From Candidatus Bathyarchaeota archaeon A05DMB-2 (GTDB lineage: Archaea; Thermoproteota; Bathyarchaeia; Bathyarchaeales; Bathycorpusculaceae): a stretch of 64,000 nt of DNA. The position numbers were made by a program, and so were the translations under genes. The stretch's first letter is position 1. Every line of letters starts with the position of its first letter. Below, one piece after another: positions 22,226 through 26,679 of this stretch. The notes below the pieces were generated by a model. The model saw only the letters and a list, made by a program, of their open reading frames with translations. It did no database searches and was not told the DNA's origin. Location of the stretch: assembly GCA_018475625.1 (NCBI GenBank), contig JAAKEZ010000006.1, positions 1 through 64,000 of the forward strand. The letters run 5' to 3'.

Positions 22226-22867
22226 TTGTCAACTTTGAAGCCTATTTTGGAAGAAATAAAAAAGGAGCTTACGGAAAAAGACAAAATCCGAGAAACCACG
22301 CATGAAAACATGCAAAAGGCAACGAGCCTTTCCAAACGAGCCATACTCCTCGTTCACCAGAAAAAACAGGAAGAAGCCGAAAAACTGATAGAAAACGCAA
22401 GAAACATAATAATGGAACTTCAAGGCTTGGCTAAAGAGCACCCAGACATAATCTACGGCGGCATGTTCAATGCGGCGCTTCAGGAATACGCGGAAGCCAA
22501 TATTCTTCTAACCCTGATTAGAGAATCGCGTTTCGTTACGCCGCAAGAAATCAATGTGCCATCAGTGGATTATGCGTTGGGTCTGGCTGACGTGATAGGC
22601 GAATGCAGACGCGCGGTTTTAGATGCACTTCGCGAGGGAGATGCAGAAAAAGGCGAAGAATACCTGAAAATTATGGACGAGGTCTACGTCGAGTTGATGG
22701 CGTTGGACGAGGCGTACATGCTAGTGCCGGGTCTCAGAAGAAAATGCGACGTTGCACGCAAAATCATCGAAACGACGCGGGGAGACGTTACCCAAGAAGT
22801 GCGGAGAAAAGCGCTAGAGGACTATCTAAAGCAGTTTGAACGCGCCCGCAAAAAGGTTAATCGATGA
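22226..22867 (+). CDS. Translin-family RNA-binding protein
   Basis: A 213-residue, almost wholly helical protein. The centre-right (ALGLADVIGECRRAVLDALREGD, then AEKGEEYLKIMDEVYVELMALD) matches the translin/TRAX family, whose eukaryotic members form an octameric RNA/ssDNA-binding and RNase complex. Archaeal translins are known to be nucleases in some cases. Its TGA overlaps the ATG of endonuclease V by four bases, so the two are translationally coupled. The TTG start at 22226 follows GAGTGA. Confidence 0.85.
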   Translation: MSTLKPILEEIKKELTEKDKIRETTHENMQKATSLSKRAILLVHQKKQEEAEKLIENARNIIMELQGLAKEHPDIIYGGMFNAALQEYAEANILLTLIRESRFVTPQEINVPSVDYALGLADVIGECRRAVLDALREGDAEKGEEYLKIMDEVYVELMALDEAYMLVPGLRRKCDVARKIIETTRGDVTQEVRRKALEDYLKQFERARKKVNR

Positions 22868-23526
22868 ACCCACCTCTCGCCAAGTTGCATAACTTTTCAA
22901 TCGCCAAGGCTCATGAAGCGCAGAAACGCCTATCACGAAAAATCATTACGGAAGACAGACTGCCCAAGAAAATTACCTGTATCGCTGGGGTTGACGTCGC
23001 GTACCTTGGCAGCTTGGCGGTAGGCGCCGTGGCAGTTTTAAACTACGAATCCCTCGAACTGTTGGAATCTCAGACCGTCGTGTGCGAAGTCAAAATTCCC
23101 TACATTCCGACCTTGCTTTCGTTCAGGGAAATCCCGCCTTCAGTGTCATGCATTAGGAAGCTGAAGTCGCAGCCAGATGTTTTCCTCGTTGATGGACATG
23201 GCATGGCTCATCCTTATCGTTGCGGGTTCGCCAGTCATTTGGGGCTAGCAGTTGGAAAGCCGACGGTTGGAGTGGCGAAGGAAAAGCTGGTTGGCACATC
23301 CGTGGAAGCGGCGGGAGAAATATTTCTGGTTCACGATGGCGAAACGGTTGGTTCGATTGTGAACACGAAAAAGGGCGCAAAACCCGTATTCGTGAGCGTT
23401 GGACACATGGTTTCGCTCGGCACAGCCGTGAAAGTCGTTAAACAATCAGTGTGTAATAGCCGAATTCCAGAGCCCCTTCGGCTTGCACATGAAATTGCGA
23501 CGAAAGAAAAGAGACTTTTGTCGTGA
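22864..23526 (+). CDS. nfi: Endonuclease V
   Basis: Cleaves DNA, and in many organisms RNA, one nucleotide 3' to inosine. The 220-residue protein shows the catalytic acids in context: GVDVAYLG (Asp, about residue 43), SFREIPP (Glu, about 91) and LVDGHGMAHP (Asp, about 111). The YIPTLLSFRE wedge motif is conserved. Length is typical. It overlaps translin by four bases, and the next gene starts 80 bp later. Confidence 0.93.
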   Translation: MNPPLAKLHNFSIAKAHEAQKRLSRKIITEDRLPKKITCIAGVDVAYLGSLAVGAVAVLNYESLELLESQTVVCEVKIPYIPTLLSFREIPPSVSCIRKLKSQPDVFLVDGHGMAHPYRCGFASHLGLAVGKPTVGVAKEKLVGTSVEAAGEIFLVHDGETVGSIVNTKKGAKPVFVSVGHMVSLGTAVKVVKQSVCNSRIPEPLRLAHEIATKEKRLLS

Positions 23527-23605
23527 ATTGGTGAGGGGACCCATATGCGGGAGCCTCAAAGCCTTTATACTTTCACGGCATGAGAAAAAGCGAGGCACTT
23601 AAGAA

Positions 23606-23932
23606 ATGGAGATTCCATTCGAAGAATTCCAAAAACTCGACCTGCGTATAGGGAAAATAACTGAAGCAAACCAGATTTCCGGCTCTAGAAACCTCATCAG
23701 AATAATGGTGGATTTTGGCGCGGAGGAGCGGCAGGCGGTAGCGGGGCTGTTGCAGTGGTACAAGCCTGAAGACCTTGTCGGCAAGAAATGCGTTTTCATC
23801 CTCAACCTCAAAAGACGCACAGTGATGGGCGTGGAGTCGCAATGTATGATATTGGCGGCTGAGGATGACAAGGGCAACGTCGCCGTTTTACAGCCGGAGA
23901 AGGATATTGCGGAAGGAAGCAGAATCCACTAG
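23606..23932 (+). CDS. tRNA-binding OB-fold protein (MetRS C-terminal/beta-subunit type)
   Basis: A stand-alone 108-residue OB fold matching the C-terminal tRNA-binding domain of methionyl-tRNA synthetase and CsaA/Arc1p-type proteins. Diagnostic segments are FQKLDLRIGKITEA, MVDFGAEERQAVAGL and LNLKRRTVMGVESQCMIL. In archaea this domain is often encoded separately and binds MetRS in trans. It could equally act as a general tRNA-binding protein. The ATG at 23606 lacks a clear ribosome-binding site. Confidence 0.85.
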   Translation: MEIPFEEFQKLDLRIGKITEANQISGSRNLIRIMVDFGAEERQAVAGLLQWYKPEDLVGKKCVFILNLKRRTVMGVESQCMILAAEDDKGNVAVLQPEKDIAEGSRIH

Positions 23933-24074: not shown

Positions 24075-25073
24075 ATGGCAACTAATGAAGAAGCAGTAAT
24101 GTGGGTGGAAAAGTATCGTCCGAAAACCCTTGATGAAATCGTAGATTTAAAGGACATCGTGGACAGCCTGAAGGCTTTCTTGAAAAACCCCAAGACGATG
24201 CCGCATCTGCTTCTGTCGGGCATACCCGGAACCGGCAAAACCACGGTCGCGCTGTGCATCGCCCGCGAACTGTTCGGTGAAAATTGGCGAACTTTCACAT
24301 TAGAGCTAAACGCGTCTGACGAGAGGGGAATCGACACGGTGCGAGAAAGGATTAAAGATTTCTCACGTTACAGCAGGTCAGCTTTCGGCAATGTGCCTTT
24401 TGCACTCGTTATTTTGGATGAAAGCGACCAGATGACTGGGCCAGCGCAGACAGCATTGAGGAGGATAATGGAAACTAGTTCTCGAACGAGCCGATTCATC
24501 CTTATATGCAACTATTCATCCAAGATTATCGAGCCCATTCAGAGCCGCTGCGCCATATTCCGCTTCTCAAAACTGGACACAAAAGCGATGGTAAAGCATC
24601 TGGAAGCTATCGCGAAAAAGGAGAACGTGACGCTTTCACCTGAAGCTGCCGAAATGATTGTTGAATACTCAGAAGGCGACCTGAGACATGCCATAAACGC
24701 GTTGCAGACCGCTGCCGTGTACCGCGACGGTGTGGTGGATGAGAAAACGGTTCTTCAGGTTGTTGGCGAAGCCAGCCCGAAGCAGGTCCAGATGATGCTA
24801 AACAAAGCGTTGAATGGCGACTTTATTGAAGCGCGAAAGATAATGTACGACTTGATTGGTTCTTACGGTTTTTCCGGTTCAGAAATAGTTCGCCAGATGC
24901 AGAGGGAACTGCTCAAACTCTCTTACATATCCCCCGAGCAAAAGGCTGAACTGAGCGAAATCATCGGCGAGTATGATTTTCGCATGACCCAAGGCGCGAA
25001 CAGCGACATACAGCTAAGCGCGTTGCTGGCGCAGTTCGGCAAGGTTGGGAAGTTAAAAGGGGTAACTAATTGA
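24075..25073 (+). CDS. rfcS: Replication factor C small subunit
   Basis: AAA+ clamp-loader subunit that, with RfcL, opens the PCNA ring and places it on primed DNA. The 332-residue protein carries EKYRPKTLDEI at the N-terminus, Walker A GIPGTGKTTVA near residue 49, Walker B VILDESD, the arginine-finger SRC motif (PIQSRCAIFRF), sensor 2 GDLRHAINAL, and the C-terminal collar domain. Walker B has Ser rather than the more common Ala after Glu. Its stop overlaps the rfcL start by four bases. Confidence 0.96.
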   Translation: MATNEEAVMWVEKYRPKTLDEIVDLKDIVDSLKAFLKNPKTMPHLLLSGIPGTGKTTVALCIARELFGENWRTFTLELNASDERGIDTVRERIKDFSRYSRSAFGNVPFALVILDESDQMTGPAQTALRRIMETSSRTSRFILICNYSSKIIEPIQSRCAIFRFSKLDTKAMVKHLEAIAKKENVTLSPEAAEMIVEYSEGDLRHAINALQTAAVYRDGVVDEKTVLQVVGEASPKQVQMMLNKALNGDFIEARKIMYDLIGSYGFSGSEIVRQMQRELLKLSYISPEQKAELSEIIGEYDFRMTQGANSDIQLSALLAQFGKVGKLKGVTN

Positions 25074-26299
25074 AAAATGACGTGCTGTGGGTTGAAAAGT
25101 ACCGCCCTCAAAAAATAGCTGACGTCATCGGAAATGAAGAAGCCAAAGCCACCTTTGTCGAATGGTTAAAGAGCAAGTGCCGCAAGAAAAAGGCGGTTTT
25201 GCTTTATGGACCGCCAGGCGTGGGGAAAACGGCTCTGGTCAACGCAGCAGCGAATGAGTTTGGCTTCAGAATTATTGAGATGAACGCGAGTGACACGCGG
25301 ACGGAGAAGGCGATAAACAAAGTTGCTGCACCAGCGACTTCCTTTGTGGGGTTGGACACGTTTTCAACTGGTGGCAAAGGAAATCTCGTGTTTCTGGACG
25401 AGGTTGACGGCGTGGCTGGCAAAGAAGACAGGGGCGGAATAGGAGCGATAGTGAGGATAGTTGAAGAGTCACGTGTGCCAGTTATTATGGCTGCGAACGA
25501 CCCTGACTTGGAGAAAATTAGACCCCTGAAAAAAGTCAGCGTGCTGATAAGGTTTCACCAAGTGCGCATCCCATTGATAATTGAAACGTTGCGGAGAATT
25601 TGCCGAATGGAGCATGTTGAAGCGGAGTTTGAAGCACTGGAGAGAATTGCCCAAAACAGCAGAGGCGACATGCGCTCAGCCATAAACGACCTGCAAAGCT
25701 TAGCGGAGGCGGGCAAAGTTCTCACGCTCCAAGACACCATGGTGCTGAGCTCCAGAAACAAGGACATAGGGGTGGAAGAGACGCTTAGAAGCTTCTTCTC
25801 AGTGAAATCCCTCGCAGAAGCTGAGAATTTGCTGAAGCGCTCGAGCGTGGATCACGACGAGCTTCTGATGTCTGTAAGCGATAATCTTCCGCGGCGATAC
25901 CTCAACCCTGTGGAGCTTGCTGAGGCTTACGACTTTGTTTCGCGGGCAGATATGTTCAGGGGAAGGATTGGTACGGAAAACTGGCATCTTCTCAGATACT
26001 TCTACAACTCCATGGCGGAAGCCGCTGCGGTCTCGCCCGAATCGTACAAGCCTTTTGAGTTTATTTCGCCGCCGATTAGGATCATCACTTTGTTCTGGAC
26101 GAAGGGGAAGAGGACGATTTTGGATGCGATTTGCGCTAAAATAGCACTGCGATGTCACGTTTCGCGAGCAGCTGCTAAAAACGATTTCGTTCCTTTCCTC
26201 AAAGTTATGCTGCAGAAGCGCAAGGTAAGCCCGATAGCTTCTTGGCTTAAGCTGGAGCCTGAAGAGGTTGATTATTTAGTTAAAATGAGTAAGTTCTAG
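25070..26299 (+). CDS. rfcL: Replication factor C large subunit
   Basis: AAA+ clamp-loader large subunit, 409 residues. It has EKYRPQKIADVIG, Walker A GPPGVGKTALV, Walker B FLDEVDG, sensor-2 RGDMRSAINDL, and a long helical C-terminal collar. The SRC arginine finger is absent, as expected for RfcL. The protein ends VDYLVKMSKF; the C-terminal PCNA-interacting (PIP) box present in many archaeal RfcL proteins is missing. A PIP-like tail is found instead on the next gene. The start is TTG 25070, coupled to rfcS. Confidence 0.95.
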   Translation: MKNDVLWVEKYRPQKIADVIGNEEAKATFVEWLKSKCRKKKAVLLYGPPGVGKTALVNAAANEFGFRIIEMNASDTRTEKAINKVAAPATSFVGLDTFSTGGKGNLVFLDEVDGVAGKEDRGGIGAIVRIVEESRVPVIMAANDPDLEKIRPLKKVSVLIRFHQVRIPLIIETLRRICRMEHVEAEFEALERIAQNSRGDMRSAINDLQSLAEAGKVLTLQDTMVLSSRNKDIGVEETLRSFFSVKSLAEAENLLKRSSVDHDELLMSVSDNLPRRYLNPVELAEAYDFVSRADMFRGRIGTENWHLLRYFYNSMAEAAAVSPESYKPFEFISPPIRIITLFWTKGKRTILDAICAKIALRCHVSRAAAKNDFVPFLKVMLQKRKVSPIASWLKLEPEEVDYLVKMSKF

Positions 26300-26313
26300 T
26301 TGAAGGTGAGACA

Positions 26314-26679
26314 TTGGCGGTTCTTAACAAGAAAGCTTTCAAGCTTCCTCGTGTTGAAAAAGAAAAGTTCCTCCTTCTGTTAAGGCTTGGTTTGGAGTAT
26401 AACCGAGAACAGGCTGCCTTCACCATAAGCAGTTACAACAACATTGAAAAACTCGTTGACATAATCTCTGGCATTCTAAACGAGGAAGTGAAGTTTTTGC
26501 AGAATTGCATTATCTGCGGCGGAGATTTCCCCTGTCAAGACTGCAAGTATTACGAGTCGTGCGCCACAAAGGACTTTCCTTTTCGTTGCGTGTGCCCAAG
26601 GTGTCTGAAAGAAGGAAACAAAACGCAGAAAGCAGGTCCCAAGATAGTGGGGCAAGGGACTTTAGATTTGTTTGGATAA
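26314..26679 (+). CDS. Cys-rich protein with C-terminal PIP-box-like tail
   Basis: 121 residues. A helical N-terminal half (EKFLLLLRLGLEYNREQAAFTI) precedes an eight-cysteine cluster in residues 67-101 (CIICGGDFPCQDC, YYESC, FRCVCPRC). The protein ends GQGTLDLFG, close to the PCNA-interacting consensus Q-x-x-hydrophobic-x-x-aromatic-aromatic, with Gly at the last position. It starts at TTG 26314, 14 bp after rfcL, following GGTGAG, so it is in the clamp-loader operon. I do not recognise the family. An accessory role at the sliding clamp is an inference from tail and context. Confidence 0.6.
   Translation: MAVLNKKAFKLPRVEKEKFLLLLRLGLEYNREQAAFTISSYNNIEKLVDIISGILNEEVKFLQNCIICGGDFPCQDCKYYESCATKDFPFRCVCPRCLKEGNKTQKAGPKIVGQGTLDLFG

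Follow-up and report, generated by a model that had tools for sequence, protein, structure and literature searches.

Clamp loaders and their small subunits

Archaeal clamp loaders have so far been described as assemblies of RfcS and RfcL kinds only, at least in those parts of the account of archaeal replication factor C (RFC) that are drawn on here (PMC3984812). The same parts describe two kinds of subunit, or RfcL together with two small subunits in some euryarchaea, and within them no third gene for a protein with eight cysteines is mentioned. In eukaryotes, the alternative loader Ctf18-RFC has Ctf8 and Dcc1 as extra small subunits, which are joined to the large subunit at its C-terminus and tethered flexibly (PMC12928700).

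Here we focus on an archaeal locus in which such a third gene follows those of the two loader subunits. It lies within a 64,000-nucleotide stretch of DNA, the whole of which is referred to as the window. We call the third gene X. Its product is probably an accessory subunit of the clamp loader that carries no family name and has been overlooked until now. Neither X nor a third archaeal RFC gene of this sort was found in searches of the open literature.

The rfcS-rfcL-X locus

The rfcS and rfcL genes of the window are ordinary members of the archaeal RFC (RfcS4-RfcL) families; X is what sets the locus apart from the loader as described. The features are as follows.

24075..25073, + strand: rfcS, replication factor C small subunit, 332 aa (NCBIfam NF001679, 431 bits, above the cut-off)
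25070..26299, + strand: rfcL, replication factor C large subunit, 409 aa (NCBIfam NF003229, 384 bits against a cut-off of 280; translation)
26314..26679, + strand: gene X, RfcL-linked Cys8 protein without known family, 121 aa (no significant Pfam, NCBIfam or PDB match; relatives downstream of rfcL)
26314..26505, + strand: X, N-terminal alpha/beta domain (FKLPRVEKEKFLLLLRLGLEY...; AlphaFold2 pLDDT about 90 for residues 1-60)
26506..26604, + strand: X, Cys8 core, C-x2-C-x5-C-x2-C-x5-C-x8-C-x-C-x2-C, presumed metal site or sites (invariant cysteines)
26650..26676, + strand: X, PIP-like C-terminal tail GQGTLDLFG, predicted to be disordered (codon selection, chance test, pLDDT)

The reading frame of rfcL starts with TTG at 25070, overlapping the end of rfcS by 4 bp, and stops at 26299. 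The start of X is likewise a TTG, at 26314, 14 bp past the end of rfcL. In translation RfcL ends in ...EEVDYLVKMSKF, and a terminal Q-x-x-hydrophobic-x-x-aromatic motif is absent, just as a preliminary description of this DNA had reported in stating that the protein lacks a C-terminal PCNA-interacting motif (PIP box). X has exactly eight cysteines and the C-terminus VGQGTLDLFG. The same description had placed an eight-cysteine gene ending GQGTLDLFG 14 bp downstream of rfcL, and the open reading frame is indeed a real gene, with relatives that are 90%, 78% and 68% identical at the same place in other genomes.

Upstream of rfcS (window positions 22226-23929) are genes for a Translin-family protein, endonuclease V and a protein with a tRNA-binding domain. 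In Bathycorpusculum-type genomes, the genes past X resemble GINS and MCM when inspected by eye (L006:740-1297 and L006:1-711; the downstream open reading frame of L112), which would widen the cluster to a replication island.

A family held together by eight cysteines

A known family for X was sought and rejected, since neither sequence nor fold gave a significant match. Pfam returned nothing, PDB sequences nothing at E<=1, and NCBIfam nothing significant, its one match (E 0.08) falling far under the cut-off. In the AlphaFold2 model, residues 1-65 form a small alpha/beta domain with high confidence, the Cys region is less certain and the tail is disordered, with pLDDT below 50 for residues 104-121; no PDB fold matched the model at E<=0.001, its Cys half being of low confidence. 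A viral origin was also rejected, as no relatives of X were found in viral contigs.

When 28 diverse relatives were aligned, the eight cysteines were the sole invariant columns. The N-terminal alpha/beta domain, with the signature FxLPRLGxDxFxxLMRAGxxYD, is common to Bathyarchaeia and most other X families, while the proteins of family f29 and most of those of f61 carry another N-terminal half, KFPGTCIVCN...GVKHxxC, that has the appearance of a zinc finger. Because the N-terminal half differs among families, it is the Cys8 core that forms the conserved part of X; it probably holds metal.

Distribution of X

A single-sequence search over 61 near genomes found X in 6, counting that of the window, and always directly downstream of rfcL. 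With a profile, X was found in 61-62 of the 257 genomes of the window's class (Bathyarchaeia), or in 60 of 257 once two doubtful matches are set aside. The 28 named loci belong to Bathyarchaeota and near relatives. At nearly all bathyarchaeal loci X begins about -32 to +31 nt from the stop of rfcL, the start codons having been picked by rule. A profile that includes distant members extended the family beyond the class to f29 (open frames of 105-130 aa), f58 and f61, and at the examined loci of all three, X again stands directly downstream of rfcL. In the class to which f29 belongs, 191 of the 230 sampled genomes have the Cys core (156 of the 185 good ones); we take this sister class to be Nitrososphaeria, the class of the ammonia oxidisers. 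At 18 of 26 further X loci, from many families of this sister class, rfcL is immediately upstream on the same strand, and one genome scored as X-negative (G438) has a diverged, Cys-bearing open reading frame behind its rfcL. Weak matches in long or odd reading frames (G037, G255 and G505; E about 1e-3) were judged to be chance and left uncounted. In one genome (G171) a tentative X match lies at a contig edge, and in another (G027, L007) rfcL is broken into two frames, while X is interrupted by an in-frame TAA shortly after it begins.

Fusion and co-occurrence with RfcL

The gene order is accompanied by covalent linkage. Clean open reading frames in which X is joined to the C-terminus of RfcL were found in two unrelated lineages, one of 593 aa in a genome of the window's class (G081, L067, family f10) and one of 491 aa in family f29 (G556, L109). 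A third fusion (G164, L065:2461) is interrupted by a TGA at the first cysteine of the core and by frameshifts beyond it in the Cys half, and may reflect decay or a sequencing error; reading this TGA as selenocysteine was rejected, the remaining Cys half being frameshifted too.

X also keeps company with one type of RfcL, defined here by a profile score above 200 bits. A hand count over the window's class gives X in 58 of the 60 genomes that have this X-type RfcL and in 2 of the 167 with other RfcL matches, figures that do not amount to a probability because X-bearing genomes supplied the sequences for the RfcL profile and because the genomes are related. The two X-type genomes without X are G120 and G223. 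Mapped onto an RfcL tree that was built by a quick method and has some long branches, the presence of X requires 5 changes as opposed to 47 for shuffled labels. Three genera (g18, g43 and g38) each hold both types of RfcL, which indicates that RfcL type and X change together. The two distinct types replace one another within these single bathyarchaeal genera, as in g18, where G018 and G163 stand against G159-G162.

Operon order can reflect co-expression without contact, and X might be a small metal-binding protein, for instance a regulator or a member of another pathway, that is merely co-transcribed with rfcSL and remains outside the loader. Six X loci of families f80, f81, f82 and f84 adjoin genes for CbiQ (of an ECF transporter) and an ABC ATPase (L200, L201, L204, L208, L213 and L214), with CbiQ confirmed by Pfam at four of the six. 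In these families rfcL is elsewhere wherever it could be located, and the RfcL ends that were seen have no Cys domain. Stand-alone copies of X point the same way: one genome (G222) has two among hypothetical genes (L076:1931-2245 and L076:9230-9622) in addition to one behind rfcL, and in another (G224) X is 20 kb away from rfcL. The exchange of the N-terminal domain for a zinc-finger-like one in f29 and f61 could be read in this manner as well. However, with two independent clean fusions to RfcL and the co-variation with RfcL type inside genera, a lack of functional contact is hard to uphold, and we regard co-transcription alone as unlikely.

X has linkage to rfcL across lineages, excepting f80, f81, f82, f84 and a few single genomes, and fusion to a loader subunit in two places (L067 and L109), as would be expected of an RFC accessory subunit. 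The preliminary description had proposed that X belongs with the clamp loader and that its relatives should be sought beside rfc. The conserved rfcS-rfcL-X order, the two clean fusions and the co-occurrence with one RfcL type bear out the proposal, and the association with rfc holds across lineages, though in some families the neighbour is CbiQ instead.

The C-terminal tail

Among the window's relatives, purifying selection acts on the tail of X. When the window is compared with the two relatives nearest to it, the nine codons of the tail differ by 4-8 synonymous changes and by no amino-acid change, whereas up to 6 of 12 residues differ in the linker that precedes them. Of 617 proxy genes, 4 end in a strict Q-x-x-[LIMV]-x-x-[FYW]-x? 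pattern; the set came from the window and the fetched loci and is X-enriched, these loci having been fetched for X, and all four genes are members of the X family. The X of the window has a PIP-like motif in a C-terminus that is predicted to be disordered and is under selection. Set against the PIP consensus, QGTLDLFG fits at positions 1, 4 and 7 but has glycine in place of an aromatic residue at position 8, so that the full motif is absent. The likeness to Q-x-x-L-x-x-F-F noted in the preliminary description is thus real and beyond chance, with this one departure.

Known archaeal C-terminal PIP boxes, such as those of FEN1, NreA and some RfcL proteins, share with the X tail the Q1, L4 and F7 residues, the C-terminal location and the disorder. 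In contrast to them, the X tail has no second aromatic and is found in some bathyarchaeal clades only. Fuller PIP boxes with an aromatic pair are available locally, in the same and related genomes, in FEN1 (...TTLEKWFG) and NreA (...QKKITDFF). In a curated set, archaeal PIPs are located at the very end of the protein, the C-terminus, and of the PCNA-binding motifs that have been confirmed, 43% are missing one aromatic of the pair (PMC6881253). Since the tail is selected and a second aromatic is often missing in proven PCNA binders, contact between the X tail and PCNA is plausible.

It would be tempting to conclude from this that X is mainly a clamp-contact subunit that took over a PIP function lost by RfcL, as the preliminary description had suggested. 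The RfcL of the window indeed has no terminal PIP box, the tail of X is PIP-like and selected in the window's clade, and Q-rich LF tails (QQQLLF, TQQKLF, HQQKIF and KQDTLVDF) recur in several clades; the C-terminal position of archaeal PIPs and the frequent absence of one aromatic from confirmed motifs are also in its favour. However, a terminal PIP box is equally absent from all 42 of the bathyarchaeal RfcL ends taken from loci with no X next to rfcL, almost every one of them from a genome that has no X at all. The absence of the motif is therefore a feature of the lineage and gives no sign of a transfer to X, and the idea that RfcL lost its PIP box only where X is present was rejected. The tail is moreover missing in most X homologues, a finding that the preliminary description had itself named as one that would refute its proposal, and the local PIP boxes of FEN1 and NreA have the aromatic pair that the X tail lacks. 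A transfer of clamp contact from RfcL to X consequently appears doubtful, somewhat more so than simple co-transcription.

As a hallmark of the family, the PIP tail was rejected on the same ground, conservation of the motif across the family not being observed; many of the tail-less members end in a YxxY stretch instead. In other bathyarchaeal clades the tails of X read QQQLLF, QQQTLF, QQKLF, QQKIF, QQKLM, QQLLL or KQDTLVDF. The PIP-like state requires 8 changes on an X tree that is poorly resolved and where the pattern labelled one row, L014, falsely. The tail is most likely a secondary, clade-specific addition to X. In one Bathycorpusculum relative (L030:5001-5381) it reads ACNNNCYSN..., as if the frame had slipped in glutamine codons.

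A probable accessory subunit of the clamp loader

X could also act mainly on DNA or on a single-strand binding protein at the primer junction, in a role comparable to that of the chi/psi proteins of the bacterial loader, and while it is small, accessory and tied to the large subunit, with a constant core beside a replaceable N-terminal half, and Cys-rich cores often bind nucleic acid, it has no likeness in fold or sequence to such proteins (PDB), which leaves this role highly improbable.

The reading that we favour, and consider rather more probable than the others, is that X is a third, accessory clamp-loader subunit that docks at or near the C-terminus of RfcL, with the Cys8 core as its working part and the tail as a clade-specific element. 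It is because X occupies the same place behind rfcSL across many archaea and is sometimes fused to RfcL that it is probably part of the loader. What the sequences display directly are the gene order, the fusions, the co-occurrence with RfcL type, the invariant cysteines and the selection on the tail. Complex formation, bound metal, PCNA binding and the contacts of the core are what we infer from the sequences. X would be made from the rfcS-rfcL-X operon and would dock on RfcL at or close to the C-terminus, the site of the covalent joint in two lineages. The Cys8 core of X would probably hold metal and would likely make contact with DNA, with the clamp or with a different replisome protein next to the loader. 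The flexible C-terminus of X, in the window's genus as well as in some other bathyarchaeal clades, would in addition have turned into a PIP-like peptide with possible contact to PCNA. The likeness to the Ctf8-Dcc1 subunits of Ctf18-RFC is one of arrangement only; unlike Ctf8 and Dcc1, X is Cys-rich, and no solved structure matched it significantly in sequence or fold.

With a conserved third gene, in places fused to that of RfcL, one of the core machines of replication would gain a part. The carriers of X appear to include archaea that rank among the most abundant in sea and soil, the apparent ammonia oxidisers. An RFC reconstituted from two subunits of these archaea might then be incomplete. 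More tentatively, a third, metal-binding subunit may be needed to load the clamp or to couple PCNA to the replisome in ammonia-oxidising archaea and many Bathyarchaeia, as a counterpart in role of Ctf8-Dcc1 or bacterial chi-psi that was overlooked since no family model matches it.
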